A stretch of DNA of 27,728 bases, taken from contig JADGIF010000044.1 in assembly GCA_018985225.1 (NCBI GenBank), positions 1 through 27,728 on the forward strand, given 5' to 3'. Under the pieces are notes generated by a model. That model saw only the letters and a list, made by a program, of their open reading frames with translations. It did no database searches and was not told the origin of the DNA. The stretch's first letter is position 1; each line of letters starts with the position of its first letter. Below, piece after piece: positions 3,223 to 27,556 of this stretch. The DNA is from Amoeboradix gromovi (lineage: Eukaryota > Sanchytriomycota > Sanchytriomycetes > Sanchytriales > Sanchytriaceae). The position numbers and the translations under genes are program-made.

Positions 3223-4454
3223 TTACAATTTATTGTTATTGCGAACAACCCAATCTACGCTTTCACAGAAATAATCTAGATTAGCGCTGGTTAAACCACA
3301 CATGCTAATTCGCCCATTGTCAGTCATGTATATGTGAAATTTGTTTTTCAGCAAGTGCACCTGCATCTTTGTTAATCCCGTAAATGAAAACATGCCAATT
3401 TGGGAAGTGATATGCTCCCAGTTACCCGGTGTTTTCAGTTTCACTAATCGTTCTTTGACACCGGTTCTCATCTCCGTAATTCTACCAGACATAGCCATCA
3501 ATTCCCCTTGCCATTCTTCAAATAGACTAGAATCACTCAAAACTATAGACACGATTCTAGCTCCAAATGCAGGGCTGTTAGAATTCATTGTCCTGATTAT
3601 TTTACTAAACTGGGATGTAACTTTATTTGCTGTGTCTTCATCTTTACAAGCAGCTATTAAACATCCGATTCTTTCAGAATATAATCCAAAGTTCTTACTA
3701 AACGAGGATGCAATAAAGCATTCAAGTTTTAGTTCATTTGCAAAGAATCTCATCGCCCAAGCGTCCCTATTTAGGTCTCCAGATGCGAATCCCTGATAAG
3801 CGTTATCAAAGAGGACAAGATGCTTTCTTTTTATTATAGCATTGCCAATTTCTTTCCATTGCTTTTCAGTTAAGTCAACTCCGGTTCTAAGTAAATAAAT
3901 AACTACGGATTATGGGCACATGCATGCAGAACAAAGACAGAACCACTAGGAGCATCTAAGATATCTTGCTTATAAGAATCAAACGCTAATCCTCTTGTAT
4001 TTGAGTCGTAATACCTATATTCCTCCACTTTAAGATTTGCAGCTTCAAAAATTTGGCGATGATTTGCCCAAGTAGGATTACTAATGTAAACTATAGCGGA
4101 CGGAAAATGTTTTTTTATGAACTCAGCACTAACGCGCAACGCACCCGTGCCTGAGATGCATTGAACTACTGCAAACCTCTCATTTTCTTGTGTTCCAACT
4201 GCCAATTGAAGTGCGTGTTTACGGAATAGAGGAAGCCCCGGAATTGGTAAATACTCATGATCTTCGTTACTATCCATTATTCTTTTTTCTGCTTTTCGCA
4301 CTACATTTAGCACGTATGGTTTTCCAGAGTCCGTTCTGTACGCACCAACACCAACATTAATCTTTCGGTCAAATTGGTCTTGCTTGTAGGAATCTGTTAA
4401 ATTAAAAATAGCATCAGGTGGTAGTAAATCTACACTTGAGAAATGAATACTCAT
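3223..4454 (-). CDS. Aspartate aminotransferase (spliced, one 20-nt intron)
   Basis: Pyridoxal-phosphate transaminase (aspartate + 2-oxoglutarate to oxaloacetate + glutamate). Exons are 4454..3907 and 3886..3223 on the minus strand; removing the 20-nt intron 3887-3906 gives 403 residues, the normal length. The join restores HACAHNPTGVDLT, the invariant AAT substrate/PLP loop. Other hallmarks are GVGAYRTDSGKPYVL near the N-terminus, YLPIPGLPLFR, CISGTGALR, YISNPTWANH, LFDNAYQGFASGD and the PLP lysine SSFSKNFGLY (about K247), then ERIGC. It starts MSIHFSSVDLLPPDAIFNL with no targeting leader, so a cytosolic enzyme is likely. Without splicing it would be two halves separated by a frameshift. Stop is TAA. 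Confidence 0.93.
3887..3906 (-). other. 20-nt spliceosomal intron in aspartate aminotransferase
   Basis: The sense sequence is GTAGTTATTTATTTACTTAG. It splits a Pro codon (CC|A, phase 2) of the conserved HNPTG motif. It has GTA donor, YTNAY-like TTTAC, then TTAG. Splicing is inferred from restored conserved protein sequence. Confidence 0.9.
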
Positions 4455-4502
4455 CTTAAAAACAAGGAGGTCATGCTCTATGAAAAGTAAACGGGGTTAG
4501 AA

Positions 4503-4748
4503 ATGGATATCAAGAAGACAAAGGAGCAAACATTAGTAGTCCTGGAGCCCATTATAGTGGTATATGAACCAGATTATATAATAGTACTATATGACTTGTT
4601 TAACAATTTAGTCTACTTTTTGTACGATGCGTCGGCAGTGACGATGCTTTTTATATTTAATCGTTTATCTTGGGTATCCAAAACTCTAAAATTAAGATTG
4701 TGTTATAGATATGATCGCACACAAAGTGTTGTATTGATATCTAGTTAG
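4503..4748 (+). CDS. Hypothetical small hydrophobic protein
   Basis: An 81-codon frame starts at ATG 48 bp from the divergent AAT start. It begins MDIKKTKEQTL and continues as a largely hydrophobic stretch (LFNNLVYFLYDASAVTMLFIF) that could make one or two membrane segments. No family is recognised. It lies on the same strand as the MAIP1-like gene but in a different phase, and no intron fitting the local consensus joins them. It may be a chance frame in the intergenic region. Confidence 0.2.
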   Translation: MDIKKTKEQTLVVLEPIIVVYEPDYIIVLYDLFNNLVYFLYDASAVTMLFIFNRLSWVSKTLKLRLCYRYDRTQSVVLISS

Positions 4749-4877
4749 TTATTCCATGTAAATTAAATTCTAAACCATAGCATGCAGCATTTTTAGGACC
4801 TTATACTGCAAGACTCTTATAGCTAATTAATAGTAATGTCATACTGGTATTAATTATTTTGTTTTCACTATGGTTGG

Positions 4878-5537
4878 ATGAAACAATGGTATAAAAATCC
4901 ATTCAAATTTAGTAAACCGTCATTATTCAGAAGTTTGCTAAGTAGTATGATTGAGAAACCAATGCAAGAAATTGGACTAAGATACACACTAGGCTCTTAT
5001 TTTCCTAATGAGTTTATTCAAGGAGCATCAAGAGTAATTCCATTAGTCTTAAATCCAGAATTTGACGGCGAAATATTCACAGAGCATATGAAAGACATAG
5101 TCCCAATAAAAATGAATATTTTAGATTATCACAATGTTTGTGTACACAATTTTAGATTTAACATTGGCTCCCCAGAGTCCTTTGACAGTGACAAATATGG
5201 GATCGCAGTTAATCCGGCTGATTTCAGTATTATGACTTTTGAAAAGATAAACGGATTTCCTAATTTTCAAGAAAGAATGGCTAAAAGCGATGGTGTTGAT
5301 ATTCAACTGATTGTAGATGTTAAATGCAACGCTACACTATCCGGTAAGAAGGACGAAGTAGATGTGTATTTAAAAGGGTCTGAGCTCATAGTATCATTTG
5401 CATCACCAACTTATAGATCAAATCAACTGAAAAAAGACATGGATATTCCAAACTGGAAGATTTGCGATTTTCAATATTTCAACCTGAACAGAATTATAAG
5501 TAAGCACAGGGGTACTGAAGATTCAGACAGCTATTAA
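4878..5537 (+). CDS. MAIP1-like (Tim44-fold) mitochondrial protein, tentative
   Basis: A 219-residue protein without membrane segments. The N-terminal part (MKQWYKNPFKFSKPSLF...LGSYFPNEFIQGASRV) resembles the start of the conserved region of human MAIP1/C2orf47, a matrix protein related to the Tim44/mL45 fold, where an aromatic W-F-R run precedes F..DEFLEGA. The end, NQLKKDMDIPNWKICDFQYFNL, resembles the family's terminal 'PDW.I..I....L' strand, and the middle contains alternating beta-strand patterns. The match is from memory and weak, so the name is a suggestion. The annotated ATG gives no clear presequence, so a short upstream exon is possible, but none matching the local intron consensus was found in 4749-4877. 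Confidence 0.5.
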   Translation: MKQWYKNPFKFSKPSLFRSLLSSMIEKPMQEIGLRYTLGSYFPNEFIQGASRVIPLVLNPEFDGEIFTEHMKDIVPIKMNILDYHNVCVHNFRFNIGSPESFDSDKYGIAVNPADFSIMTFEKINGFPNFQERMAKSDGVDIQLIVDVKCNATLSGKKDEVDVYLKGSELIVSFASPTYRSNQLKKDMDIPNWKICDFQYFNLNRIISKHRGTEDSDSY

Positions 5538-6274
5538 TAAAAGATGAGTAACTTGCACGATCAACATACTTGCTACCATAGGCAACTCATTTCTTGTTCG
5601 GGGAGAGCATAACTGAGAGCATGTGATGTTTATGACACCTCTTGTAGATTGTGTGATGATATGAGAATACAAATACTCTTCAGTTACATTTTCTTTTAAC
5701 ATTACGGGATTTCCATTTAGTCAGCTGAAATACTGTCTGAAATTCGGCAAAGGTCGCTATCGGCCCCTCTTGCTATTTTACTGTCGGTAACATTACGATG
5801 ATGTAATGATCCTCTTCAGTACACAACCCTCAGCGTCTCATAAACTTCGTACAATCCCTAGTCAGTTTTTCTGTAATATTCGTCGAGAAGGAATGCCATT
5901 GCAAAGTACTTGCAGCAAATTTCGACAAACAAGTACTTATTCTTCTCTCTTCTCATCATAAGCTAGGCATGTACTTGTATTCCTGGGATCATTCAAAGAA
6001 CAAGGCTTATCATATGACGTAACTTTGTTGTAAGACCACCAAAAAGTGGAATACAGATGTGGTGCGCTGTAATAGTGACAGAGCTCTTACGATCTCGAAA
6101 ACAAAGCAAGAAATAAAATCTCGAGTGTCATCATGCAAAGATTCCTTGACTCTTCGAAGAGTAGCAACCAAACGGAGCATTATGACAGCATGGATATTAT
6201 GCGACAGATAAACTAATATTTGCTGATCTAGCGCAGCTATGCTTAAAGTAGAATACAGTAGCCATGGTATTTAC
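5538..6274. other. Gene-free decayed stretch
   Basis: All six frames are broken by stops and no protein motif or RNA gene was recognised. The stretch lies directly 3' of the F1 nuclease relic (which reads leftward), so part may be the element's 3' flank. Small inverted repeats are present but none is convincing. Confidence 0.4.
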
Positions 6275-6894
6275 CTTTTCACACAGGCCTTCTCGTTAAA
6301 GTACTGATTTCTGAGAAAATCGAGAATTCCCACAGAAAAACTAGCAATGCTAGATGCTCCGTTACAGTGATTACTCACGCCTTCACTACCCTGAGGCGCG
6401 ATCGAATAAGGATGCAGATACTTGTATATGTTCCTTGCTGCCATATGATCTCTACCTGTCTCCAAATGACACTTTGTACAGGTACAAGTTTCTAAATTAG
6501 TTTTTTAGAGTACCACACCTTGTACATGTCTGACTAGTAAATGCTTCATTACATTCAACCATCGTCTTTCCTCTTTGTTTACACTTGAACTTCAAGCGTT
6601 CCTTGAATGTGTAATAGGACATTGTAGCCATATCTCTTGCGACTTTCTCGACATGCTAATTATCATTTGACTAGTATTAAAAGATGGTATGTATATAAGA
6701 TCTTATGTCTTTGTATGCTGTACCTATTAGTTATTTCTTTAGATTTGACATATTCGGGATTACATCCATTAATTCCATTTACCATTTGCGAAAGGAAGAA
6801 TATCGAGTGTTTAAGCTACTAGAAAAGTCATGAAATTACATAAAAACGCATACAAATTCGCGATAAATGATCTATTCAAGAAAACAATCGAGCT
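6275..6894 (-). pseudogene. TnpB/Fanzor-like nuclease relic (family F1, copy B)
   Basis: Read on the minus strand this contains, in order: a degraded segment with NPEYVKSKEITNRYS (compare the 'NP.Y.....KL..LQR' run after RuvC-I in TnpB); MATMSYYTFKERLKFKCKQR; then TMVECNEAFTSQTCTRCGTL; then after a one-base deletion, TKCHLETGRDHMAARNIYKY. This is the canonical TnpB/Fanzor C-terminal order 'F...L.YKA..YG..v.E..E.yTSktCs.CG...C..C....RD.NAARNI'. RuvC-III Asp (GRD) and both Cys pairs are present but split by the frameshift near the first Cys pair. The right boundary matches copy A from AGCTCGATTG (6894). Upstream RuvC-I/II is not recognisable. A dead fragment. Confidence 0.72.
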
Positions 6895-7138
6895 GTAAGA
6901 AAATTTGAGGACAGCTTCCGTTGATCACACCGCTCATTTTATCATTGTGACTAGGGAGTTTAACGCTTGAAATCTACCGTCTCCTATAGCTAACAACATC
7001 CTTTGAGCATGTGATGGGAATTTAAGTTTTTACTATTGCACTCACAAAAGTCATAAAGGCTTAATCTGGAATTGCTCTGAGCTGTTCAAGACAAAAAGCT
7101 TTAAAAAAAAGAGCACATTGAAGCCAGATAAGTAACAA

Positions 7139-7858: not shown

Positions 7859-8002
7859 TATTAAGTATTCGTGGTTTTCTCCTTTTTTGTTTTCTTAGTA
7901 CCTGATAATAAGTTCTCATTGATACAATAAAATGAAAGAAAGCAGATGCAATGAAGCTATTTATTTAGCTTGCTGTAGCTAAATTGACAAAATAATTTGA
8001 CT

Positions 8003-9148: not shown

Positions 9149-9208
9149 TCAGCGGCCTAAATGATTGTGAAAGTAAATTAAAATCTCAATAACATATTTA
9201 TTATAAAA

Positions 9209-10661
9209 TTATACCAGTTTGTCTTCGCTTCCATTTAAGTCTGCATGTAGATATATTTTCTTAAATCCACTCAATGCCGGGTGTGGTGAAAATGGACTGT
9301 CAGAGAGTTTGAGTCTCTTATTCTTCCAGTACGCATACATAATGAACAAAGCTAATACATCAACTACTAGGAAAAACAGTATTCCCATTAAAGGGTTTAT
9401 TTTATCTAACCCATTTTCACTCCGATGTATTTCAGTTAAGTGGCTAGTGTTATTGATCTAAGTCAGTATGAACTACCAGTGTCCCTTCTAAAAAATGCTT
9501 CAACATATGATAGGTGGTCTCTGGTTGATCTATAGGTACCATATGCGACGCATTATATATCTTCATATATAACAAGTTATTTTCACTTTGTATTTCAGCA
9601 GTTTTTATTCCATTAAGCACTATGGGTAAGGGATCATTCTTGAACCCTTGCTGGTTGTTCCAAGTCAGTTTCTTTATCATATTCTCTTGACCGATGTGAT
9701 TGCAGATAAAGTCCTTATCGCCATTAAATAACAAAACAGGAATCTGCTTTAATAGCTCAGGGAGAAGCTCAACAGAAGGTTTGCTCCGATCTGCACTTAG
9801 ATCTCTGTAAACCTTGGAGTTGCATTCCACCCACGTTTTATTGACGTGCAGCTTTTCCATTGTTGCTGGGCTTTGAAGATATTTGTACACTTGAGGTAGG
9901 GCATACGGCCAATTCTCACCACAACCGTTATCTTCAATTAATCTTATGTCATACATATTAGTGCATTTTCCGTTATTTATTATCCTGGTGCTTTGAAATA
10001 TGATGCCAGCAATCTGCTCACATTCAATATCAAATATTCTGTTTGACTTTTTAATTGAAGCTTCACATTTAGTCCATTTCTTCTCAATTTCAGAATTAAA
10101 TCTATCCAACAGTAAGCCATGTGCTTTTGAATACTCGATATAGCTTCGATATTGAGAAGATGGATCCATCCAGCCATTTCCCATTAGTAGCCCCTTAACA
10201 TTGAGATTGTATTTTAACAAACCCTGAGCAATATAAGGTATGTAAGTACCGGCATACGATTCCCCGGATAAGTATATCTCCATGTCCTTAAACTGTGGGT
10301 ACATATCTAGTAACTCGGCCATAAATTCAGTAAAATCGGTGACCACGTCTGCTTCTGAATTTGCGCCAATGCCTTGGCTAAAGCCCGTGTTCAACGGTTG
10401 ATCGACATAAACCATGTTGGCTAGCTTATGCCAGCCATATTCGTTATTGTCTTCTTGTTCGCCATTTACTCTCATAATTTTGGGGCCATTCTCAAGAAGC
10501 AGCCCAACATCACTGCTACATCCCGGTCCCCCGTTTAGCCAAATAACTAGCTTGTTGTTTACATGAGGAATATGATAATAGAAAAGACTGCCTTTCTTTA
10601 TATCTATGTAGCCAGCATAGGTCTTATCCTGGTGTATATAATGATTTTTTGAGCAGGTCAT
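9209..10661 (-). CDS. KEX1: Kex1-like serine carboxypeptidase (spliced, one 19-nt intron)
   Basis: S10-family serine carboxypeptidase with a C-terminal membrane anchor; the Golgi enzyme Kex1 trims basic C-terminal residues from pro-proteins. Exons are 10661..9477 and 9457..9209, 477 residues. Motifs: WLNGGPGCSS (oxyanion hole, about 41-50), LSGESYAGTY (catalytic Ser135), NGDKDFICNHIG (Asp, about 313-324) and NASHMVPIDQP (His373). Exon 2 encodes a Ser/Thr/Asn stretch, one transmembrane helix (NPLMGILFFLVVDVLALFIM) and a cytoplasmic tail ending EDKLV. Without splicing the anchor is lost and the protein ends eight residues after the junction. Oddity: ATG 10661 gives MTCSKNHYIHQ with no signal peptide. 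The frame is open upstream to a TGA at about 10713 and encodes hydrophobic residues (FFTLNIL, ALLIM) but has no ATG. It lies 52 bp from the UBC9 stop. Confidence 0.92.
9458..9476 (-). other. 19-nt spliceosomal intron in KEX1
   Basis: The sense sequence is GTAGTTCATACTGACTTAG (phase 0). It has GTA donor, CTGAC branch-like pentamer and TTAG acceptor. Its removal joins the catalytic domain to the anchor exon. Confidence 0.9.
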
Positions 10662-11205: not shown

Positions 11206-11960
11206 ATGAATAGAGTTGGTATTGGATTTGTTGGTGCAATATCGCTCGTGGAAGCAACTAAGTATGCGAATCCAAATTGGAGTCTTTATAGAACTGAGTG
11301 GTTTAAATCTATTAACAGAGCATTTAGGATCCATCCAACCGTTTTAACACTTACTGGAATAAATGTGGCAGTGTTTGCAGCTTGGCAATATCCTCCTATT
11401 CGTAATACCGTATCCAAGTATTTCACTTGTTCTAATATCAGTCAGTTTTCTGCGCCAAAGCCGTATCATTTTGTCGGTTGGTTATTTAGTACTTGCTCAC
11501 ATCAGAGTGTTATACATCTTGGTTGCAATATGCTTGCGTTCCAGTCTTTTGCACCTATAATATTATCACAAGTGGACAACTATGGATTCTCTGAGTTCTT
11601 TGTGACATCCGCTTTCTTATCATCTGCTGCTTCACTACTGTATAAGAAACGCTATGGCATAGTCAGATCTTCGGTTGGGCTATCAGGTGTGTTGATGGCA
11701 ATGCTGGCATTCACAGCATTAAAGTATCCGCATGTTAAAGTTAATTTAATGTTTATTCCTATTCCGTTTGAAATTCAATCAGGAATGGCCGCTGTTGTTG
11801 TAATGGATGTAATAGGCGTTATATTCAGATGGCAGTCGTAATTACCCTTTCACTTAGATTTGACCATATTGCTCATTTGGGCGGTGTAGCAGCGGGACTG
11901 CTCTACTATAATTATATGAAACTGCAGCCTAAGAAAAAGCACAGAGTGCTATGGCAGTAA
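11206..11960 (+). CDS. PCP1: Mitochondrial rhomboid protease Pcp1/PARL (spliced, one 20-nt intron)
   Basis: Intramembrane serine protease of the inner mitochondrial membrane (Pcp1/Rbd1/PARL), which processes Mgm1/OPA1-like substrates. Exons 11206..11837 and 11858..11960 give 244 residues. Features: hydrophobic segments; HLGCNMLAFQSF (TM2 His/Asn, about 104-115); VGLSGVLMA with catalytic Ser160; and, in exon 2, FDHIAHLGGVAAGL with catalytic His217. PARL proteins share the 'FDHAAHLGG' form. The intron falls six residues before that His, so the unspliced product (stop right after WQS) would be inactive. The frame is open upstream on the UBC9 antisense, but ATG 11206 is the natural start; no strong targeting leader is visible. 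Confidence 0.9.
11838..11857 (+). other. 20-nt spliceosomal intron in PCP1
   Basis: The sequence is GTAATTACCCTTTCACTTAG (phase 2, TC|A). It has GTA donor, TTCAC pentamer and TTAG acceptor. Retention puts an in-frame stop (TAA) within the intron. Confidence 0.9.
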
Positions 11961-12996: not shown

Positions 12997-14610
12997 TCAT
13001 TTGCTGATGGTAGAATCAATCAGCTTTATTCTTTCAAGAGGCATATCATTTTCGTCTGTCTTAATGTCATTTATAGCGTGAACTGTATCTATACCATCAA
13101 TTACCTTCCCAAATACACTGTTCTTGCCATTCAACCACTCGCATTCTCTAACTGTAATAAAAAACTGACTGGTATTCGAATTGGGTCCTTTGTTAGCCAT
13201 GCTAACTACATACGCGTCATGCTTTAAACCTACCTCATCCTCAAAAGGGTGTCCAAATATGCTCTCTCCTCCAGTACCATCTCCGTTTGGATCTCCTGTC
13301 TGTATCATAAATCCCTTTACTATACGATGCCATGACATGTTGCGGTAATATCCGCTTTTTATTAGCTCTGTGAAGTTATATACAGTCTTTGAGCAATAGT
13401 CACCATATAACTTGATAGTAATATCGCCCTTGGATGTATGCAGAATGACTTGAGATGGTAAATCCGTTGGAATTTCTATTTTACTAATTTTTAGATCTTC
13501 TTGATCGATTTTCAAGATCTTCTCGTTCTCATGGTCCCTTAAATCCAAGGGGTCGCTGTTGTTGTATATGTAAAACCTGTTATCGCAAGTTGCTATAAGC
13601 ACAGGATCAATAGTTAACATTTCCTGTAAAGTTGGATTATTAGCAACCGCTAGTTGAAAATCGGTCAGATCTGCTTTAATATACTGAAATAGTACTACAT
13701 CGGTATGATATAAAGAGTCTAGCCTCCCATATTCCTTCAAAACTACCGGAATATCCTCATTTAGTCTTAGAGGAATTAATATGCATTTTATACTCTCAGG
13801 AGTTGGCACCAGTATATAATTATCGGTATAATCAAATGTGCAGCGTATTTTGGAACTGAAGTCAGCTTTATTTGAATCATTTAGTAGGTCAGGTATCTTT
13901 AAATCCAATAAACATTTGCCAGTGACTATGTTAAATACTCGCAGATTGTTATCTAAACACATAAAAGCACACAGCTCCCCGTTTTTACTCAATTTGATTG
14001 TAGCGGCAGATGTTTTTAGTTTGCTTAGCATGTACAAATCTGTTTTCAATTTAATTTTCCATTTTAAATGCCTTGGTTGATGAGGTTTTTCAAGAGTGTA
14101 AATTCCAATGACTCCAGAAGTATCGCAAGCTATTATAACATTTAGGGATGTGCTGTAAGACAGACAGGACAACTGAACGCTGTGCATGTTGATTGAACTT
14201 AAGAGATTGCAGTCAAGCGAGTAGATATCTATACTTTGGTTTGCTAGGACAATGCTGCTTGGGGTGCAAAGGCAAAACAGATACTTCAGGTGAATATCTT
14301 TTGTAAAGAAGACATCTAAAGTTAACAAATTAGTAATTTTGACGTTTGTGAGATCCTCTGAGTTACAAATAGTAATCAGCATCTCATTACAGATAAAAGC
14401 ATGAGTTATAGAATTATGCAGATGAATCTTTTTAATAAACTCAATTTTAGGCAAAGTCCACAACTGCAGCATACCTTCAGCTGAGATAGTACAGAGCATT
14501 TGCTTCTTATCGTAAATAAAAACGAATTTAATAGTACTCAAATGCATCCAAGATTCATGATAAGTAGTGCACTTTGGCAAATCATGTAGTTCCAACTTCC
14601 GTCGTTTCAT
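12997..14610 (-). CDS. PPWD1: WD40-cyclophilin peptidyl-prolyl isomerase (PPWD1 type)
   Basis: A 537-residue protein with an N-terminal WD40 propeller (about 20-380) and a C-terminal cyclophilin domain (about 386-537). The cyclophilin part has VILHTSKGDITIKLY, WHRIVKGFMIQTGDPNGDG (catalytic Arg in HRI), SMANKGPNSNTSQFFIT and the FGKVIDGIDTV turn. The WD40 part shows PPWD1-specific order: SWMHLSTIKFVFI, CDTSGVIGIYT, WKIKLKTDLYML, ATIKLSKNGELCAFMCLDNN, IVTGKCLLDL, and NPTLQEMLTIDPVLIAT before the linker. PPWD1 is a nuclear protein found in late spliceosomal complexes. Such a protein is absent from baker's yeast, which argues against a Saccharomycotina host. Complete, no intron, TGA stop. Confidence 0.9.
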   Translation of the reverse strand: MKRRKLELHDLPKCTTYHESWMHLSTIKFVFIYDKKQMLCTISAEGMLQLWTLPKIEFIKKIHLHNSITHAFICNEMLITICNSEDLTNVKITNLLTLDVFFTKDIHLKYLFCLCTPSSIVLANQSIDIYSLDCNLLSSINMHSVQLSCLSYSTSLNVIIACDTSGVIGIYTLEKPHQPRHLKWKIKLKTDLYMLSKLKTSAATIKLSKNGELCAFMCLDNNLRVFNIVTGKCLLDLKIPDLLNDSNKADFSSKIRCTFDYTDNYILVPTPESIKCILIPLRLNEDIPVVLKEYGRLDSLYHTDVVLFQYIKADLTDFQLAVANNPTLQEMLTIDPVLIATCDNRFYIYNNSDPLDLRDHENEKILKIDQEDLKISKIEIPTDLPSQVILHTSKGDITIKLYGDYCSKTVYNFTELIKSGYYRNMSWHRIVKGFMIQTGDPNGDGTGGESIFGHPFEDEVGLKHDAYVVSMANKGPNSNTSQFFITVRECEWLNGKNSVFGKVIDGIDTVHAINDIKTDENDMPLERIKLIDSTISK

Positions 14611-14640: not shown

Positions 14641-16060
14641 CTAAAACTTGAACTCGCCGAAATCCAGATCTAAAGATATCGATTCTAATTCTGGCTTGTC
14701 AAAAAAGAGCTTCGAATCAGTGGATATGTTGAACCTAGAATCGACAGGAATTAATGCTTCTGCCTTTATATGAAATTCTTTAATCGAAGACGGACCCTCA
14801 TCATAGATCTGCTCTGAGTTAAATTCATCTTTATTATCATTACTCTCGAGAGAGTTACTTTCACCTGCCGAATCTTCAATTGCTGGAGTTTCACCAGTTT
14901 CTTCTGGAACACTCAGACTCTTTTCATCAACAACATCTACGCCGTTTCTTAGAATACCCGAGTTATTCTCGAGTAAGTAGCTAATTATATTTGTAAACTT
15001 GTCCTAAATTAATTGGAAATACAAGGTATCCCGACTCGATATCTTTCCCATAATACTCTCGCTCCCATTTCGAGCATTCTATTGCAGAAACCTGTTCTTT
15101 CAATTTAGACTCTATGTCCTTAATTTTGGGTATTGCTTCTGATTTTGGGCTTGCTTCCTTGGGCTTAAGAATTTCATAAAGTGTTACAAATTTGGAAAAC
15201 TCAGTTTCTTCTATTAATGTTGTAGGTTTATGAAGACCCAATTCTCTTAGTTGCTCGTTCAGTACTAAGTTCTTCTGTATCACTACCTTTAGCATGTTGT
15301 AAAGATCTTCTAATTTACTTTTATATTCCCCTGCAATTACTTCTAAAAAAGTATCTTCTTTTGATTCCTCAAAAAGACTTTTTACTCTGCTAATTATCTC
15401 AAAATCTTGAATATTCTCATCAGAGGAGCTGTATTGTAAAATTTCTTGGCTCATCAGAATCGCAGTCTTGTAGTCTTCAATTGTACATTTTTGAACATTA
15501 GCTTTATTTGATCCGTTTTTTAGCTCTTGTTTTAATCTTTCAATTTCATTGTCTTTAAACCTCAGCTCATCTCTTAGTTTGTAAATTTCATCAGATTCAA
15601 TTTTTTTCTCTTTTATTGCACTCGCCATATAAAATAGATTTGATTTGCTTTCGCACCTGTCTATGCTATCTTTTGAGATTTTCTTACCGAAATCTTTCAA
15701 TACGTGGTTCCTATGTCTAACAAATGTAGAATTCCTTTTAAGAGATTTTTGGGATTCAGAATCTTCATCTACACTTGATTTAGTAGCTGCTCTCATGCTA
15801 TGCCTGAACGAGGTTTGACTAGGAATGCCTATGTTTAAGCTATTATTTCTTATATCAGTTACATCCAAGTACTGATTAGGTGCTGCTTCCGAGTCGTTTT
15901 TATTTATTATTACCTTGCTTATTTTTTTCTGAGATTGAAGACTTGACCTTGGTTCTGCAGCGTCTTTCTCAATAAATACCGCGTTGGTTTTTATTTTTGG
16001 GTTCTCCATTGCTACTTGGATGTCAATTGGTTTTCTTTTTACAGTCTGTCTTTTTGACAT
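14641..16060 (-). CDS. Coiled-coil protein, unknown (spliced, one 19-nt intron)
   Basis: Exons 16060..15023 and 15003..14641 give 466 residues. The N-terminal ~150 residues are basic and Ser-rich, probably disordered (MSKRQTVKRKPIDIQ, RHSMRAATKSS). Coiled coils follow at about 155-190 (YKLRDELRFKDNEIERLKQE) and 255-280. The C-terminal exon is acidic (EETGETPAIEDSAGESNS) and ends LDLDFGEFKF. Removing the 19-nt intron joins GYL to DKFTNIISYLLENN, giving 121 more codons to TAG; without splicing the protein stops nine residues past GYL. No family recognised; a cytoskeletal or kinetochore role would fit the composition but is inference. It ends 30 bp from the PPWD1 start on the same strand. Confidence 0.78.
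15004..15022 (-). other. 19-nt spliceosomal intron in the coiled-coil gene
   Basis: The sense sequence is GTATTTCCAATTAATTTAG (phase 0). It has GTA donor, TTAAT pentamer and TTAG acceptor. No homology guides this call; it rests on the consensus and the long open frame it restores. Confidence 0.8.
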
Positions 16061-16695: not shown

Positions 16696-18682
16696 TTCTT
16701 TTTTCAAATAGGGCTATAGTACATTAGATGTTTGTCAAGGCCCAATTGTGACACTCTTCTCCTTGTTAAAAGTCCTGATCTACAAGAAAATCGAGTTTCT
16801 ACAGATAGAATGACGAAGCGAATCACTGCACTATAATCGTTACCCATCAAAAGGTATATGACTCTCTTTTCTTGCGTGGATGTGCATCGGATGTTTACTG
16901 TGAAAGAGGAAAGAGTATCAAGTATTATTAATTACACAATACTAGAAAGATTAAATTAGAATAATAGAGTTCATGCATCGAGATAAATGATTTACTCAAC
17001 TAAATTTGACAGCTGATTGAATGAGAAGCGACAACATAGATTTACCTTCAAAACGGGAATCACAAAAGCAAGTTTAGTGCGGTAGTCATCTCAGTCTTCC
17101 TGACAACTTGCATTACCATTTTAAATCAATTGACCATATTATTTCAGATTTTTGTTTCCTTCTCTATCATCTTATTCATATTAGTACCCTATACCTTACG
17201 TAGGACAAGCTCTAAATGCATCGTGTTCCATATTTTTCTGCTCAATTTGGAATCTCCTAGAGCGTCCTCTCATCGCTCTGCTCTTGCCATACTTGGATCT
17301 TGATTGCTTTGAACAATCGACTTTTGAGTGAACCATGGCTGAAGTATTTGAAATGATTAAGTTTAGCATTAGTTATCATGGACTTTGCTTCATAGAGTAC
17401 AACATGCTGATGAAGTTTTTATCTTGGCGATTCTGAAAATTTGTATACTGATTGTGTGATCCATATTTAGCATGCTCGTCTTTCATTCCTTGATAAATTT
17501 TGATATAAAACTTCTAGAATTTGTCATTCGATAACAGCACTACAGAAAAGTCAAAGGATTATCAGGTGCTAGATACATCAGCCTGAGTATAGAAAATGGG
17601 ACTTATACATTATGACTTGCACAGCGTCTACTCCTCATTAACTGTGTGTAAAGATCTCAAGGAAAGTTAGGAGGTGTCTTGCGTCATGGTCTTGTCATGC
17701 GTAACATTTAGAGGTGCTTATATCAGATATACCATTTCGTCCATCAGTAAATACAATATCATTCTTCCTGCTTTTAAGGATTTTTTATTGACCAAAGAGA
17801 CCCGCTTATCCTTAATTTCTTTAGTTCTTAGTATGAAGATCGCGTTCCAAGCAGTCGTATCAAAAAGGGACAAACTTTCAGCTACTGGACCCCAGTCACG
17901 ATTTGCGTAAAGTTTTTATACTCGCTGAGGCCAGAAAACGGATACTAATGGGGTAATTAACCTTGTACAGTTTATTACTTTCAAAAGTAGTCCAGTTATC
18001 TATGTTTTATTTAAATTCGGGTTATGCAACACATTATGGAACTTTATCTTCGCTAAGAGAACGGAGATGATTCTGGCACCAAACTTCCTTTTAATGAGTC
18101 ACGATAAAATCACCAAACCAGAGGTAGCATTGTTTGCAGCAGGTCTAATACTTCCGCCTTTACAGCTCCACATATGCCTTTGAGTATCTGGTAAAAAATT
18201 TAGGCTTATTTACAGCCTCGAAAAGCATATCACTACCTTTTGATTCCGCTGAATCAGGCTCTCATACAGATAAAAAGAGTTCAAAAACATAATAGATTGA
18301 TATGACATGCGTATCAGATATACAGGTGATTAATTATTGACCGTGGGGCAATAAGGCATTTGAAGCTGAATTATCGGCTTCCAGGGTTGAAACGGTGACA
18401 ATTTGGCAAGCTATCGGATGAGTAACAGATCATATAAAGATGCCAATTGAATTCAATACTCTTAAATTATGCTACTGTTGCCACGCCAAGTGCGCTCAGC
18501 GATCTCGAAAAGGTGCAATGTTATACCATCTGTGTAGTGAGATGTAGTCGTGAATAGGCATGTTTATGCTTTATGTTCGCAATAAAATCTATCGAGAAAT
18601 GATGAAAACTCGACTCGAGTGAACAACTACTATCATAAACTGACTGTCTATTTCTGTTTCTCAGGAAATTCTCGATTTATCC
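16696..18682. other. 2-kb gene-free decayed stretch upstream of the F1 relic
   Basis: No intact gene on either strand. A 78-codon frame at 17674-17910 has no recognisable motif and no conserved context. A stretch near 17015-17070 reading EKRQHRFTFKTGI vaguely recalls the N-terminal 'FTF..G' part of TnpB-like proteins, which would fit a degraded 5' half of the F1 element, but the spacing is poor. Otherwise nothing was recognised; no tRNA. Confidence 0.4.
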
Positions 18683-19290
18683 AGCTCGATTGTTCTCTTA
18701 AATATATCATTTATCGCGGATTTTTATGCATTTTTGTATAATTTCAAGACTTTTCCAGATTTTTCTAATAGCTCAAATACTCGATATTCTTCCTTTTCGC
18801 AAATGGTAAATGGAGTTAATAGATTTTATCCTGAATATGTCAATTCTAAATAAATAACTAGCAGGTACAGCATACATTCGTCTCAGACTGATAAGCTGGT
18901 CCAAATACGGAAATTTGATGCCATGCACAATATGCGGCACTCTAAAGAAAACCAATTTGGAGAGCTATTCATGTATATAGTGTCATTTGGAAGCGGACAT
19001 GGACCACATGGCACCAAGGAACAAATTCGATGCCATGTATGAGGTATGGTACTTTAAAGAAAACTAATTTAGAAACATACACATGTACAAAGTGTCATTT
19101 GAAGATAGGTAGAGATCATATGGCAGAAAGGAACATATACATCAAGTATCTGCATCCTTATTCAATCCCGCCTCAGGGCAGTGAAAGTGTGAGCGATCAC
19201 TGTAACGGAGATCTAGCATTGTCAGTTTCTCTGTGGAAACTCCCGATTTTCTGGGGAATCAGGACTTTTAATGAAAACGGGATCTCATTT
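18683..19290 (+). pseudogene. TnpB/Fanzor-like nuclease relic (family F1, copy A)
   Basis: Homologous to copy B from AGCTCGATTG onward. The segment coding for the 'FKERLKFK' helix is deleted, and the zinc-ribbon segment occurs twice in tandem (period 112 bp, units starting 18911 and 19023). Unit 1 reads CTICGTLKKTNLE then a stop inside the second Cys pair. Unit 2 reads CMRYGTLKKTNLETYTCTKC (second Cys of pair 1 changed to Tyr), then GRDHMAERNIYIKYLHPY, keeping the RuvC-III Asp. The downstream SIPPQGSESVSDHCNG is shared with copy B, so the C-terminal extension is a family trait. The frame runs on into the F2 repeat (GTPNIKT). Non-functional. Confidence 0.72.
18911..19134 (+). repeat. 112-bp tandem duplication of the zinc-ribbon segment
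   Basis: Two diverged direct copies, each running from AAATTTGATGCCATG / AAATTCGATGCCATG to the CATGGCACCAAGGAACA / CATATGGCAGAAAGGAACA region. They carry the Cys-pair and RDHMA coding segment. Differences between the units show the duplication is old. Confidence 0.7.
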
Positions 19291-19787: not shown

Positions 19788-21600
19788 ATGTCTCATATGT
19801 TTCCTATTTTTTTGACCAACAAAACCCAATTATCCTTAGGGCTGGAATTTAAACCTAATAAAAAGAGGGAACTGTTTACCTTGATACCATATTCAACAAT
19901 CAAGTCGCATATGGAAGAAAATCCTTTAATCTCAGAATTTTTGCCACTAAAAGAAGAACTGAAGGACATAGTAGCTGATCTGGTGCTAATCAAAGACATA
20001 TATTGGACAAGCGGTCAAAATTTTATAATAACCAAAGACCTAACAAGAGGTGAGCCTTTGGTCGAAACTGAGATGATAAATGATGTCAAAGATGTGAAAG
20101 TTCAACAAGAGACAAAGCGTCACATTCGTAGTAGTAAATGGAAGTTGTCATCGGTGCAAGGCTCACCAACTCTTGAAGTCCATAAATTCCAACTATCTGC
20201 CATAAAATCTCAAGTTGTGTTGGATAAGAAGTCATTTATTTTTAACCAGAAACACTGTGGGTCCAAATCTCATGGCATCCAAGTTCAATCGAAGTTCACA
20301 AGTGTTAAAAAAGTCCAGTATGAAAATTCAACTTTATCAGAATCGAAAATACAAAGCATAACCTCAAGCGCAGGATTTTTAGAGTTCTGCAAGCAAGCAG
20401 AATCTGCAATCGAGACAGATTTGCAGTTTCAAAATCTAATAGACGCCACTCGAATTAAAAACTCAGATGTGTTTATAAGCAATAAAGAGAAGTTACTCGA
20501 CTTAACTTCATTTTCACTTGCAGATGATAGCACCGAGCGAAAAATGATTGCAACTTGCGTTAGATTTTTACCTGATAATCATGATAAGATAATATGCTCG
20601 TTTACTTTTTTAAATACATCAAAAGAGGATGAAATCATTTTATGTAAATGGAGCTCAAAAGACATTATCACACCAGAACAACAAGTGTTAGGAAGCATAG
20701 GAGTAACATCTTTTTGCATTTTCTGTAACCTGATAGTTTGTGGATATGAAAATGGATCATTAAAACTCTTTGATAAGGAAACGCTCGTGGAAAAAGAATA
20801 TTTAATTGACAAGCTGAACAAAAAGTCACCCATCGTGTATTTACATTATTTCAATTGGTGGATTACTGCGGTAGCTATGGATTGCTCTATCTCTTATTGG
20901 AAAATCCATGACACCCAAATTAAGTTAATTCACGAGGTAACAGTTACTGATGTAGACAAGTCCGAAGTTCCAATCCGTTTGCTTACATGCTGAGCACTGT
21001 AGCAACAACTTATTCCGTATAACAGAGGATTCTGGACTGGTTTACGATGCACTAGTGAATGATTCCACCACTGTATTTGTTAGTAATCAAATTAAACTAC
21101 CATTTCCAGTATCATTTACTACTGAGCATCCTTCCATCGATTCCTTAGTCTTAAATGGCTCATACCAGCTGTTAACATTTTATTCAGAAAACAAAGAAAT
21201 TCACAGAATATTTCAGAATTGTACATATGTTTGCGGTAAATGGTCTCCAAGCCGAGCTAACATCTTGTATTCGCTTACAAGCGATGGAAGCTTACATGTA
21301 TACGATTTGTTGCAAAACGATGAGCATCCAATCGAAATCAAAGCAGTTACGTCCTCAAGATTAGTAACGATGGATGTGTTGTTGCTAAATTTCAAGCAAT
21401 ATATAGCGATGGCAAGCCAGGACGGGTCCAGCTGTATACTTAAAATACCCCGGGAATTAAGCAAGGCATATCAAACCGATCTAATAGAATTTAAAGCATA
21501 TTTGTTGCGTATGATACAATCTAAAAATGAGCTGGCCCAATTAGAAGATCTACCAGCAAAGCCAGTCGTAAAGTGCAACCCCCATTTATACATCAAATAA
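19788..21600 (+). CDS. WD40 protein, possibly dynein-2 intermediate chain (spliced, one 19-nt intron)
   Basis: Exons 19788..20936 and 20956..21600 give 597 residues: an N-terminal ~230 residues without a known domain, then a WD40 propeller (about 260-570) with repeats such as FCNLIVCGYENGSLKLFD, HYFNWWITAVAMDCSISYWK and GKWSPSRANILYSLTSDGSLHVYDL. The splice join restores FQSVCLHAEHCSNNLFRITE followed by DSGLVYDA, the 'V....HP...N.F..GTEDGLVY' repeat typical of dynein intermediate chains. EFCKQAESAIETDL ahead of the propeller and a late ILYSLTSDGSLHVYDLLQ also fit; WDR60/DYNC2I1 is the closest family by pattern. If right, the organism builds cilia or flagella. Start is ATG 19788; an earlier ATG (19745) is stopped after eight codons. 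Confidence 0.6.
20937..20955 (+). other. 19-nt spliceosomal intron in the WD40 gene
   Basis: The sequence is GTAACAGTTACTGATGTAG (phase 0). It has GTA donor, CTGAT pentamer and GTAG acceptor. Removal joins two open frames and completes a WD repeat. Confidence 0.87.
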
Positions 21601-21756
21601 ATGATATGGAACCATTAAGTTTAGATTCTGGCGGGCAAAGACCTTGTTGCCTAACAATTTTTAAAACACATTTTCTTTAACTTACTCGTGTGCAATTTGC
21701 TGAGTTTGTTTTACACTCTCAAGTTGGCAGCGAAAGGATAAGAAGTAAAGGCGGAT

Positions 21757-22455: not shown

Positions 22456-22860
22456 GCTCTGTGAATAGTAGAACTAGAGGGGCAGAGTGGATGTCAAAAA
22501 TAAATAGAGATGTGCAGTTGGAGGATGTTTTGTAAGATTAGTATATGGTTACTATTTGTCTCTTTTTACATAGAGTTTTGTTGGCACCATCATCTTCTGG
22601 CATATTTCTTTACAGAGCAGTATGTATATACTGATTATTGAAACTAGCCAAACCAGTCATATTCCCAATCTTATGAACACCAATGAAAACTGATTACACA
22701 GCTTACAAAGAGACTCAAAGTTTATTCATCATAAATGAAGCTTATTCCATTTTTAATTCCACATTTGCATTCATTCCACTAAAGTGGTACTCACGCTTTC
22801 ATTACTCTGAGACTTGACTGCAGGTGAGACTAGAGAATAGTAGTTAAGATTAAAGGGTGT
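22456..22860. other. 405-bp spacer, nothing recognised
   Basis: Stretch between the BNA7 start and CDC8 stop. No open frame of note, no RNA gene. It must hold the BNA7 promoter and CDC8 3' end. Confidence 0.4.
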
Positions 22861-23415: not shown

Positions 23416-23989
23416 TGTTAGAATAATTTAAAACGTTTTCTTAACTGTAAAAATAGAAAGCTATCACATCAGAAATTAATAGAAGTAGAAAATTGTAAAG
23501 CTATAATGTATCCAATGAGGCGCCTTTATCATGAACACTCAGAATTGACTTTTCAGTTAGTTATGGCTCTGACACTGCACCCAGAATGAATGCAGAAGTC
23601 TAAACAAGCTGCTATTTCGGATAGCTATGTATGTAGTCTTACTATTAAATTTTGGTATTATGCGTCAAACGGTCTTCAGACTCAACTTCGAACGCATCAC
23701 ACAAAAGGATCCTATACTAGGAACTAACTGATGTCTCTCGTCGCAAGAAATATTCCTGTACCTGACTGTATACATTAAAGAGTCTTTGCTGCTCCTCAAA
23801 AGAGAACATCGTACATGCGAGAGTTTGGTAAAATTAACAAAGTTTACACAGACTCATTAAGCGCGTGAAGGATTTAGGGAAGGCTAGGAGAAGAAGACAT
23901 CAAATGTCCCACAAAGAAGTACTATTTTATGCATTTGCTAGCGCTCAATAAAAGTGAATAATAATCAATTGTCAAGTTAATTAGTCAAA
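23416..23989. other. Gene-free stretch upstream of F1 copy C
   Basis: All frames are interrupted and no motif was recognised. It holds the CDC8 promoter at its left end. The rest may be degraded 5' sequence of the F1 element whose fragment follows. Confidence 0.35.
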
Positions 23990-24095
23990 ATATGGCTAAA
24001 ATGCTATGTTACTCATTTAAAGAGCGCTTGAAGCTCAAGCGTAAAATGGAAGAAAGGCATTGATGGAGTGTAATGAAACGTGTAGTCCAAAAAGG
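23990..24095 (+). pseudogene. TnpB/Fanzor-like nuclease relic (family F1, copy C)
   Basis: About 100 bp aligned to copy B: it codes MAKMLCYSFKERLKLKRKM, then after a frameshift the segment equivalent to VECNEAFTSQ (here CNETCSPK). This corresponds to the helix before the zinc ribbon. The homology stops just before the Cys pairs. Fragment only. Confidence 0.6.
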
Positions 24096-24277
24096 ACAAT
24101 GATCGATGAGTATTTGCTTAAAAATAGTGAACGACCATGTTGGTAGAGAATGATGATGATGCAACTATTAAGCCTAATTCTAGCTAGTGATTTATGTGGT
24201 ACTTCCGTTAAATGTGTTCTATACTTGTACGATGGGTATGCTGAAGTGTGAAGTATAACTAACAATTTATTTTCTAG

Positions 24278-25420
24278 TTATTCTATGTAATCAACTCGTA
24301 TGTTCTTCCATTTAGTTAAACAGCAAAGCAAAACAGTGTCTCCATTGGTGTCTGCATTGTTTAACGCCTCTAGTAGTGTTAGATTCTCGTTGATAATCCT
24401 AAATTTCCAACAGCTTTCTCTTAAACCCATCATATCATAATAGGTATAAATATTACTCAGCTTGTCACATTTAAACATCACTGTATAATGGCTATCATAA
24501 TGGAGTATCCAAATGGGAAATTTGGGCGACTGCAAGCAATTGCCTACCATATGCTCAATTGGAGTTAAAAACCCGATGTCGCTCTGAACGGTCATGCCCT
24601 GAAGCCCCAATTCATCGGCGTCTAGTTGATCTAACGTATCCATGATAGCTCTACCGGTTAGCATTAAATTAACCACACTTTGTGTTCCGTATGCATTTTC
24701 ATCGTTGTCTATTAGGGGACCATTACCGTTAAGGTCTGAGGTAACTGAATCCAAGCCCCTGCTTAAGACACAGCTGTATATAACGGACAGAACAGCATGG
24801 AATGATGTCTTGATTGTGTTGCCTTTGAATAAACTGATGTTTAAAAGAATAAAATCAACCAAGTCAGACATGTCAACCAGTAAATCAAATCTTGCAAACT
24901 CATATATCTCCATGTATTCAGAGATTCCATCGTACTTTTCAATGTTGATGCTGTTATTGTTAAACAGAGCCAACTTGACTATTTGAGAGTTGCTAGCACA
25001 TTTCCATAGCACATCTGCGAGGCCATATGCAAATGCTCTGTATAGCTGGTCATCTGAAGGCTTCAATGAAGGAACCTCGTTTAAGATTTCTACCACGTCA
25101 AAGCACTCAAACTCAGAGAATAATAGATGTTTAAATAAATATGCATTCATACTAGCTAATACCGTGCATGGACCACCCTTCTTCTGCATGAAGCCAAAAT
25201 TGCAATGCCGGTTAACTTGAAAGCCTTTGTTTTTCCAGTTGTTGGGGATTGATCGATTTTCATCACCGAATACGGTTCTTTTCAGAGATTGCAGCTCTTG
25301 CTTGTTAATTGGATATCCCAATACCTTATTAGGAAGAATTTCGGGAGAATGCGGTGCGCTTTTTGACAACTTCAAATTCATAGTTTCAACTCTAAAAGTC
25401 TCCAGAACCTGTAAAACCAT
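24278..25420 (-). CDS. MINDY-3/4-type K48 deubiquitinase
   Basis: A 380-residue protein of the MINDY (FAM188/FAM63) cysteine protease family, which trims K48-linked ubiquitin chains. Catalytic elements: GFMQKKGGPCTVLASMNAYL with oxyanion Gln79 and nucleophile Cys85, and YDSHYTVMFKC with His311. Further family pattern: VVNLMLTGRAIMDTLDQLD, then GMTVQSDIGFLTPIEHM, then SPKFPIWILH, which follows MINDY-3/-4 ('LLLTGKA...SDIGFLSLFEH...P.FPIWV') rather than the MINDY-1/2 group that includes yeast Miy1. No EF-hand insertion or accessory domain is seen, so this is a minimal catalytic core. ATG 25420, TAA stop, no intron. Confidence 0.85.
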   Translation of the reverse strand: MVLQVLETFRVETMNLKLSKSAPHSPEILPNKVLGYPINKQELQSLKRTVFGDENRSIPNNWKNKGFQVNRHCNFGFMQKKGGPCTVLASMNAYLFKHLLFSEFECFDVVEILNEVPSLKPSDDQLYRAFAYGLADVLWKCASNSQIVKLALFNNNSINIEKYDGISEYMEIYEFARFDLLVDMSDLVDFILLNISLFKGNTIKTSFHAVLSVIYSCVLSRGLDSVTSDLNGNGPLIDNDENAYGTQSVVNLMLTGRAIMDTLDQLDADELGLQGMTVQSDIGFLTPIEHMVGNCLQSPKFPIWILHYDSHYTVMFKCDKLSNIYTYYDMMGLRESCWKFRIINENLTLLEALNNADTNGDTVLLCCLTKWKNIRVDYIE

Positions 25421-25539
25421 AACTTCAACTCTTCAGTATCTCTAGAACACGATTATATGATACCGAAATATGCTAGATTCCATAGAATTACATCAATATT
25501 GTCGTGAAAGCTACGGATACTGCATTGCAAGCGATTGAA

Positions 25540-25767
25540 ATGGGATATTATGGTACTCCATCGGGACGTTTTCTTTTTAAAGTTCTTTCTTTTTGTAAGA
25601 GTGCGATTAGTGTGAATTTACTTTTTTCGGTAATCATGATTCTCCATTTTCGTTTTGTAAACACGAGCAATAAGAAGTTGAGCTGTACAATTGTTGTAGA
25701 AGAGAATGGGTTTATTGTACGCAGTAACTACTGCACATCTTCAGAAACTCAAACAAGCAGTGTCTAA
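25540..25767 (+). CDS. Hypothetical small membrane protein, possibly 5' half of a broken or spliced gene
   Basis: A 75-codon frame from ATG 25540: MGYYGTPSGRFLFKVLSFCK, then a hydrophobic stretch (SAISVNLLFSVIMILHF), then a beta-like segment (KLSCTIVVEENGFIV). The open frame extends upstream to about 25486 without an ATG. GRFLFK-hydrophobic faintly recalls the first membrane segment of small mitochondrial assembly proteins such as TMEM70/TMEM223, not enough to name it. It ends at TAA 25764, and another open frame continues out of phase to TGA 25970, overlapping the ACBD start. A real gene is possible but unproven. Confidence 0.3.
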   Translation: MGYYGTPSGRFLFKVLSFCKSAISVNLLFSVIMILHFRFVNTSNKKLSCTIVVEENGFIVRSNYCTSSETQTSSV

Positions 25768-25939
25768 CATTAGAAACAAACTCTGAGTTTAATAGAATTT
25801 GTAAGGTTTTCTTACTTTTGAATAAGTACTTTAGTACGGTTCATGATTTTCTTTCGGTATCTGCAGAATCTGTCCCATATCTAGAATTCAAAAACCATGT
25901 CCCGATTGTTTCAGTTGGATTTCATCTTTCTCATCCCAG

Positions 25940-26437
25940 ATGCAATTTGAGCAAGCTGCAGAGCTTATGAATGCATGTCCATCAGAAGTACAAATTAGCA
26001 CGGAGGAGAGACTTTTGTTATATGCCTATTTTAAACAAAGCACTTTGGGAGATAACGTAGGAACTAGACCATCGTTTTATCAGGTGGTGGAGCGAGCAAA
26101 ACATGATGCGTACTATGAGCTGAAAGGAACAGACATAGACGAATCAAAGTCTAGATATGTTAAATTAGCAAGAACTATTTTAGAACGCGTAAAACATGAA
26201 TATCCATTAATAGCCCAACAATTAAGCGTGTTATCTCAAGAGACTGAAATAGAAAATAACCATGAGTCCTCAGAAAACCAGAGGAATTTATCTCTTCAGC
26301 TGGTCAACCAAAATAAGTCCCTGACGATTCAGTTGAAATGGCTCAAGAGACTATCCATTGTTCTATTTTTAATAATAGTTTTCCAACTGAAGGTTCCTTT
26401 TAGAAAAATACTCCAAGTTTATTTTAATAAAAAATAA
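25940..26437 (+). CDS. Membrane-anchored acyl-CoA-binding (ACB) domain protein
   Basis: A 165-residue protein with an ACB domain at about 1-95 (FEQAAELMNACPSEVQISTE, LLLYAYFKQSTLGDNVGTRP, FYQVVERAKHDAYYELKGTD, KSRYVKLARTILERVK). It keeps the family's 'L.lYa.yKQat.Gd....rP......a..KwdAw..lkg.s...A...Yv' pattern, with the usual Trp replaced by His in KHDAYY. A polar linker and a C-terminal transmembrane helix (WLKRLSIVLFLIIVFQL) with a basic tail follow. This architecture matches ACBD4/5-like tail-anchored proteins of peroxisome/ER contact sites. Soluble ACBP lacks the anchor. CDC7 starts 45 bp downstream on the same strand. Confidence 0.82.
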   Translation: MQFEQAAELMNACPSEVQISTEERLLLYAYFKQSTLGDNVGTRPSFYQVVERAKHDAYYELKGTDIDESKSRYVKLARTILERVKHEYPLIAQQLSVLSQETEIENNHESSENQRNLSLQLVNQNKSLTIQLKWLKRLSIVLFLIIVFQLKVPFRKILQVYFNKK

Positions 26438-26481
26438 TTCAATTTAATTTATCACTTCCTGTCCCGAGTTTGAATCTTCAA

Positions 26482-27556
26482 ATGCCATTTACCAACTTTG
26501 CTGAAGCTTGTAAATACACTCCACCTGGTTTAAAGCTTTTAAAAAAGGTAGGTGAAGGTACATTTGCAGCTGTATACCAATGCGTTCCAACAGATGAAAC
26601 TGAAGAACTGTACAGATTTATCAGCAATCCTAGCTACTGTGCAGCGATTGATTCAAAATACCTTGCTGTAAAGTGTATTTACCAACAATCCGATGAAAAA
26701 AGAATTATGCGTGAAGTTGAGCTCATGTTTAAACTGCGTAATTCTCCAAATGTCATTGATGTACTTGACTTCCATAGATACCAGGACCAGAGCTGTGTAG
26801 TTATGCCATTTGTTAAGTTCCACGAGTTTAAAGATTTTTACAAGAAGATGAACTCCAAAATGGTTAAATCATACATGTTCAGCTTATTGACCAGCCTCAA
26901 AAGTATACATAAACATCTAGTGATTCATAGAGACATAAAACCAAGTAACTTTTTATATAATGTCAAGGCGAAGACTGGCTGCTTGGCCGACTTTGGTCTG
27001 GCGCAAATTGATGAGACAACAAAGAAAAAGAAAAAGCAAGTCTTCACAAAGGAACCCAGTTTGTATGATGTGAACAATGGTACAGTTTATATAGACGACG
27101 CTGAAAGTCGCCCTGCTTTACGAGCGGAGAGAGCGGGAACTCGAGGATTCAGAGCACCGGAAGTGTTGTTAAAGTGGCAGTTCCAGACTACTAAAATAGA
27201 TATATGGTCAGTAGGAGTGGTATTGCTATGCATAATGTCAAAGAGGTACCCGTTCTACCACAGCACCACCGACGATGAGGCTCTATTGGAAATTGCTATG
27301 ATAACAGGAAGTAGGGCCATAAAAGACTTGGGAGCGGTAATTGGTACTTGCACCTAATGTAGGACGATTTGTAGACATCAACACACCACACATAACGGAA
27401 GAAGGCATGGGATGGAGACCAACGATTGAGCTGTTAAATCCGAATTGTTCTTGGACGGATGATTTGTACGATTTATTGAATAAATTATTAACAGTGGAAC
27501 CCCAGCTAAGAATATCTGCAAAAGATGCACTGAAGCTACCTCTGTTCGCTAAATAA
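26482..27556 (+). CDS. CDC7: Cdc7 (DDK) protein kinase (spliced, one 19-nt intron)
   Basis: Catalytic subunit of the Dbf4-dependent kinase that phosphorylates MCM and fires replication origins. Exons 26482..27343 and 27363..27556 give 351 residues. Motifs: GEGTFAAVY glycine loop (about 24-32), LAVKCI with Lys64, LVIHRDIKPSNFLYN (Asp151), ADFGLAQ (Asp170) and AGTRGFRAPEVLLK (about 219-231), the last two in Cdc7-typical form. A kinase insert rich in lysine (KKKKKQVFTKEPSLYD) precedes the activation-loop end, as in other Cdc7s. The intron splits a Gly codon at about residue 288; exon 2 holds the C-lobe end (DLYDLLNKLLTVEPQLRISA). The larger inserts of human/yeast Cdc7 are reduced. Start: ATG 26482, preceded in frame by TTG. 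Confidence 0.93.
27344..27362 (+). other. 19-nt spliceosomal intron in CDC7
   Basis: The sequence is GTACTTGCACCTAATGTAG (phase 1, G|GA). It has GTA donor, CTAAT pentamer and GTAG acceptor. Retention stops the kinase inside its C-lobe. Confidence 0.9.

Follow-up and report, generated by a model that had tools for sequence, protein, structure and literature searches.

Probable near-minimal spliceosomal introns of 19 to 21 bases as a standard class in the sanchytrid Amoeboradix gromovi

Why should six genes on one contig of the sanchytrid Amoeboradix gromovi each be interrupted by a segment of only 19 or 20 bases? The contig is JADGIF010000044.1 of assembly GCA_018985225.1, analysed here over 27,728 nucleotides and referred to as the window. 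An earlier note on it had read the six segments as members of a standard class of very short introns, a reading supported by their spliceosomal behaviour, by a size class seen genome-wide and by a fixed spacing between branch site and acceptor. We put at roughly 0.9 the probability that segments of 19-21 bases are U2-type spliceosomal introns, near-minimal and uniform in length, and that they are the genome's standard class of intron. The case is built from the sequence and its reading frames, a peak of lengths, a shared motif, CDC7 relatives that all break off at one codon, and the presence of genes for U2 RNA, U6 RNA and the N-terminal domain of U1-70K.

All six segments read as the earlier note had stated, and deletion of each joins open frames. 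The aspartate aminotransferase (AAT) gene at approximately 3223-4454 on the minus strand contains a 20-base intron at 3887..3906, deletion of which gives a single open frame of 417 codons from stop to stop. Residues 5-395 of the 403-amino-acid spliced protein align with an aminotransferase in PDB (E 2e-122), a single Pfam domain covers residues 30-392, and the join brings LHACAHN up to PTGVD. In the PCP1-like rhomboid protease gene (approximately 11206-11960, plus strand; 20-base intron at 11838..11857) deletion gives 317 codons stop to stop, joins RWQ to SFDHIAHLGG, and raises the Pfam Rhomboid score from 48.7 bits for exon 1 alone to 70.6 bits. The CDC7 kinase gene (approximately 26482-27556, plus strand, 351 amino acids; 19-base intron at 27344..27362) yields 368 codons stop to stop, and its Pfam Pkinase score rises upon splicing from 137.0 to 154.2 bits, with the match then reaching the last position of the profile.

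The other three genes are joined with support from frame and motif. The KEX1-like serine carboxypeptidase gene (approximately 9209-10661, minus strand; 19-base intron at 9458..9476) becomes an open frame of 494 codons stop to stop, but its Pfam Peptidase_S10 domain ends at residue 410, two residues before the join at 412, and so lends the join no support. A gene labelled coiled-coil in the earlier note (approximately 14641-16060, minus strand; 19-base intron at 15004..15022) gives 473 codons stop to stop, and one labelled WD40 (approximately 19788-21600, plus strand; 19-base intron at 20937..20955) gives 397 + 214 codons, 611 stop to stop. The WD40 label itself is not borne out, the best Pfam match scoring 18.1 bits where 47 is required, and the family is unconfirmed. 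Homology thus backs three of the six window introns (AAT, PCP1 and CDC7), and frame and motif back all six; where four joins had been said to restore well-known motifs, it is these three that restore conserved domains.

Does the class extend beyond the window? About 257 kb were read closely, made up of the window, 20 unselected stretches of 10 kb and eight small loci; L003 and L006 were left out for being too short or for overlap. Segments running from GTA to TAG were picked for the coding potential and reading frame of their two flanks, with no branch motif demanded, yielding 95 segments of at most 60 bases. YTNAY lies at positions -9 to -5, which places an A exactly 5 bases from the end, in 17 of the 18 segments of 19-21 bases; the window contributes four of the 18, and outside it the motif is in place in 13 of 14. 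Among segments of other lengths up to 60 bases it is found in 4 of 77 (none of 7 below 19 bases, 1 of 9 at 22-30, 3 of 61 at 31-60), and the background rate of YTNAY before any TAG is 189/7715, giving a binomial p of 7e-27 for 17 of 18. The AAT, PCP1, coiled-coil and WD40-labelled introns of the window pass both the frame-contrast coding filter and this branch-blind test.

Patterns that include the branch motif were scored in the 20 stretches outside the window (200 kb). GTA..YTNAYKTAG, the design given in the earlier note, occurs 14 times at 19-21 bases where 3.8 are expected (Poisson p 3.9e-5). Seven of these 14 restore frames with 40 codons or more on each side, compared with 4 of 83 at other lengths from 13 to 80. 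With the acceptor relaxed to DTAG there are 21 matches against 5.2 expected (p 1.5e-7) and frames are restored in 13 of 21 versus 7 of 115 at other lengths, this relaxation having been partly learned from the same 20 stretches on which it was scored. The stretches contain 15 introns, from which we extrapolate to several hundred in the genome.

The genome-wide scan that had been proposed as a check recovers the same length class. The pattern GTA-N4..34-YTAAY-KTAG, spanning lengths of 16-46, has 673 matches, and among the 100 of these that were listed 48 are of 19-21 bases (25 of 19, 13 of 20 and 10 of 21) with approximately 4.6 expected. Lengths of 25-46 have about 1.5 each among the same 100. 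Motif pairs number 17, 10 and 5 at 19, 20 and 21 bases, with no more than 4 at any length from 25 to 120 and no second peak up to 120 bases. A bump in motif pairs at 22-24 bases (1, 5 and 5) was rejected as an intron class because it reflects at least partly an interspersed repeat of approximately 600 bases. This repeat, present in the window at 6300-6900 and 18680-19270, contains segments resembling introns of 22-24 bases, and pieces of it, 75-97% identical, occur in 15 of the 20 sampled stretches.

These distributions bear on whether the tiny introns are real but accompany a normal population of longer ones that we missed. Our scans require fixed motifs and, to either side, an open flank of 60-120 bases, and may therefore overlook introns that lie near gene starts or long ones built on another motif; the close reading is limited to the 257 kb; and a coding scan with plain GT..AG ends, run to 400 bases, was too noisy to reveal even the 19-21 class, so that it does not speak against longer introns. 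Against a second population stand the lack of excess in motif pairs at any length from 25 to 120 and the listed matches, in which no other length from 16 to 46 approaches the counts at 19-21. We regard a missed class of longer introns as unlikely.

What, then, do the short introns have in common? A logo set of 30 was drawn from 35 candidates of 19-21 bases in coding context, each scoring 14 or more and meeting a stop codon if left unspliced; the window's segment at 20937, whose score of 12.0 is the lowest of the window's six, was kept by hand, and the set may include false members, L004:685 and L005:124 looking doubtful. Seventeen are of 19 bases, nine of 20 and four of 21. The donor is GTA in 30 of 30 (favoured by the scoring), free at +4, T in 26 and C in 4 but never G at +5, and T in 29 of 30 at +6. 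The branch motif is mainly YTAAY, with A at -7 in 23 of 30, and the acceptor is TAG in 27 of 30, preceded by T (13), G (9), A (7) or C (1). The exon flanks of the 30 have no strong consensus, and phases 0, 1 and 2 are represented by 12, 7 and 11 introns. The rigid design GTA-N7/8-YTNAY-KTAG of 19-20 nucleotides, as first proposed, thus keeps its YTNAY and fixed acceptor spacing, but with lengths of 19-21, a DTAG acceptor and a GTA-N-Y-T donor. Because 21-base introns exist, lengths in multiples of three do occur; two 21-base introns inside kinase domains (one joining KTACG to TPAYVAPEV) carry in-frame stops, and a six-frame search read through them. Introns tend to occupy the 3' part of genes, with 21 of 25 beyond the middle (median 0.8, p 0.0009; five of the 30 were omitted because the locus end cuts the frame), although this bias is no more than suggestive, as introns close to start codons escape the filter. 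Intron-poor genomes usually show the opposite, a 5' bias.

The branch motif YTNAY is complementary to the GUAGUA of U2, and a U2 RNA gene with this branch-pairing GUAGUA intact (102 bits) was indeed found when the U2 small nuclear RNA was inspected as the earlier note had advised. A U6 RNA gene (65 bits, ACAGAGA intact) and the N-terminal domain of U1-70K are also present. The machinery searches, made with no fungal positive control, covered 6.78 Mb; the contigs of noted length all have at least 10 kb, so that this is probably a subset, about 65%, of the 10.5-Mb assembly. These genes, together with the GT and AG ends and the complementarity to U2, argue against removal of the segments from DNA instead of RNA, in the manner of the internal eliminated sequences of ciliates. 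Those sequences are likewise short, exactly excised and frame-joining, but the nearest named AAT and CDC7 matches are fungi, and we consider DNA-level excision extremely improbable. The first named match is Paraphysoderma for AAT, and Anaeromyces, Paraphysoderma and Neocallimastix for CDC7; for the GH31 protein discussed below a beetle and a green alga precede fungi. By its nearest named AAT and CDC7 relatives the host looks fungal, though GH31 points elsewhere first. In the window, an open frame at 13000-14610 on the minus strand combines cyclophilin and weak WD40 matches; we take its product to resemble PPWD1, a spliceosome-associated cyclophilin.

Relatives of CDC7 give a further line of evidence for the introns. 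Five proteins (P0002-P0006), 66-81% identical and drawn from sources labelled ena, eukprot, ncbi and lgn, all depart from the window CDC7 at one and the same codon. Back-translation of P0002-P0005 admits a 19-base GTA-N7-YTNAY-DTAG, and lengths of 18, 20, 21 or 22 fit none; P0006 admits 19 bases only with a donor other than GTA. Because a random peptide fits such short tails 34% of the time, each fit is weak alone, and it is the shared stopping place that carries weight. P0005 continues past the intron, and removing 19 bases gives codons that could encode 17 of the window's 21 residues IGRFVDINTPHITEEGMGWRP; the pattern is one that random tails of its kind reach 0.4% of the time. In a CDC7 tree the window protein and its five relatives form a solid clade (100/100), but its branch is long (1.9) and its position poorly supported (71/78), so that the tree tells us only that the group is divergent.

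A GH31 gene at L018 offers a second case. The EukProt protein P0241 has 698 amino acids and stops within the intron, compared with 868 codons when spliced, and the GH31 piece on contig C10 matches a EukProt protein at 100% over the 80% of the query that it covers; after this match a microsporidian or Paramicrosporidium host, considered earlier, was rejected. The tail at the end of the sibling protein P0243 also fits 19 bases, at a place some residues away from the L018 intron. The ENA relatives P0244-P0246 (839 amino acids) read through without a break, showing that this intron is not common to all relatives.

Could errors of assembly or amplification in a single-cell genome have produced frameshifts that mimic introns? 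The assembly is probably of single-cell origin, and one broken piece of RPB1 suggests some misjoins. Errors would yield neither GT..AG ends nor a fixed branch motif nor a peak at 19-21 bases, and the CDC7 break recurs at one codon in all five relatives, only one of which comes from EukProt; we judge this explanation very improbable. The RPB1 piece, at L012:7161-9443 on the minus strand, has a break at either end, neither showing a small intron, and may be a misjoin or a pseudogene; because of these breaks it was dropped as a taxonomic marker. A second repeat (TACGTTAAATGTGAAGAATTCG..) has more than 20 copies in G000 contigs, for example C44:44-77, C53:42-75 and C61:39-72; because several copies lie no more than 120 bases from the start of a contig, the repeat may interrupt the assembly.

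Several results nonetheless weigh against the segments being a standard class of spliceosomal introns. Two of the window's six, those of KEX1 and CDC7, fail the frame-contrast coding filter. Plain GT..AG ends give no clear 19-21 peak in that filter (36, 20 and 11, against, for example, 44 at 25), which is why it requires GTA and TAG. The presence of the branch A in 30 of 30 logo introns is partly circular because these were selected with the motif, although the branch-blind 17 of 18 is not. A narrower genome-wide pattern totals 480 against 312 in the reversed control, a weak contrast, and the wide-gap total of 673 is exceeded by its reversed control (737), so that wide-gap totals are uninformative and the length distribution alone is decisive. 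In the 6.78 Mb, U1 RNA was not found, the Rfam gathering threshold and E 10 leaving chance-level scores of 11.5 and 10.6 bits, and neither Slu7, Prp18 nor SF1-HH gave a match in this probably incomplete sequence; lacking a fungal positive control and with about a third of the assembly likely missing, these four negatives are individually weak. A U1 stem-loop 1 pattern had 70 matches against 64 in the reversed control, and of the 16 of 70 that were folded and run through Rfam none was accepted. One candidate, at L035, has a stem and by eye an Sm-like U-run, but its 5' part has no pairing to the donor.

How might introns so small be spliced? We suppose that the segments are removed from RNA and that the A named above is the branch A. 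A GTA-N-Y-T donor would be followed, 7-9 bases after GTA, by YTNAY (mostly YTAAY) paired with U2 and then by DTAG. The branch A would lie exactly 5 bases before the exon, with only the donor-to-branch stretch varying (A at position 14, 15 or 16). At this distance there is no room for a pyrimidine tract; branch site and acceptor may act as one unit, the AG coming with the branch site, and probably neither a polypyrimidine tract nor a separate acceptor scan would be used. The acceptor could then dock straight after branching without a Slu7/Prp18 step, and both proteins would become losable under the 5-base spacing. We propose direct docking because a short branch-to-acceptor distance makes Prp18 and Slu7 dispensable in yeast, where Prp18 is described as a minimum-distance ruler and the shortest natural distance is 10 nucleotides by the same count, and because Stentor has the 5-base spacing with both proteins undetected (PMC9505925); C. 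merolae is also reported to be without both (excerpts of PMC10711555).

If this is right, fungi join the short list of lineages splicing introns near the physical minimum, with some of the shortest splicing substrates known, and the reported link between tiny introns and the lack of a Slu7/Prp18 step can be put to the test in a second lineage, unrelated to the first. A 2008 generalisation, as excerpted from PMC2483917, holds that short-intron lineages have degenerate intron sequences with no branch signal, and the strict motif here runs counter to it. There is also a practical consequence. According to the available text of PMC8371127, sanchytrid genomes were assembled with SPAdes in single-cell mode and proteins were called by TransDecoder directly from the contigs, so that those crossing introns would be cut or split; P0241 is one example. 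The same source gives A. gromovi a guanine-plus-cytosine content of 36.27% and S. tribonematis one of 34.64%; we find 36.5% over 227.7 kb, near the A. gromovi value. Proteins with MyTH4, CAP-Gly and PAK-like matches in Pfam, and an IQGAP-like protein identified by eye, are encoded at L009, L010, L005 and L022 of this small fungal genome.

The open-licence literature searched reports no fungus with uniform tiny introns as its standard class, and in the available text of the sanchytrid papers PMC8371127 and PMC10459994 the word "intron" appears once each, in the reference list. The comparisons that follow draw on excerpts of the cited reports. The closest fungal case found is the microsporidian E. 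cuniculi, a fungus-related parasite that also has a strict donor and branch motif (CTAAY) but few introns (37), over a wide range of 22-76 nucleotides (PMC3629993, PMC2483917). The Bigelowiella natans nucleomorph has introns of 18-21 nucleotides, nearly the same range (PMC2483917, PMC10245619), but is a relic algal nucleus whose introns are described as having no branch-point signature, against a strict one here (PMC2483917). Mikrocytids share a narrow length range, conserved sequence, parasitism and a few hundred introns (224 in M. mackini); unlike A. gromovi they are Rhizaria, with shorter uniform introns of 16-17 nucleotides and a very reduced spliceosome of 17-19 proteins (PMC10245619).

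Stentor coeruleus bears most directly on the spliceosome geometry that the earlier note had called unusual: unusual it is, but not unique, since the branch A of Stentor lies 5 bases from the end, at position 10 of the 15-base form (PMC9505925), as the putative branch A does here. Both genomes have uniform tiny introns, the commonest Stentor intron (GUAAUUUUUAUAUAG) likewise has no G at +5, its published list has Slu7 and Prp18 undetected, and its U2 and U6 boxes are conserved (PMC9505925). Stentor differs in being a ciliate with introns of 15-16 nucleotides, 4-5 bases shorter, in the more than 8,000 introns analysed there, in lacking the strong branch consensus of A. gromovi, and in having SF1 and U2AF reported, where we found no SF1-HH in the searched sequence (PMC9505925). 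It is possible, though we hold it only tentatively and think it rather unlikely, that a whole fungal phylum moved to introns of 19-21 bases with a 9-base branch-acceptor unit, lost Slu7, Prp18 and SF1, and re-tuned U1 to a GUANYU donor, independently repeating the Stentor solution within fungi. Uniform tiny introns are already known in three unrelated groups, and look new for fungi.

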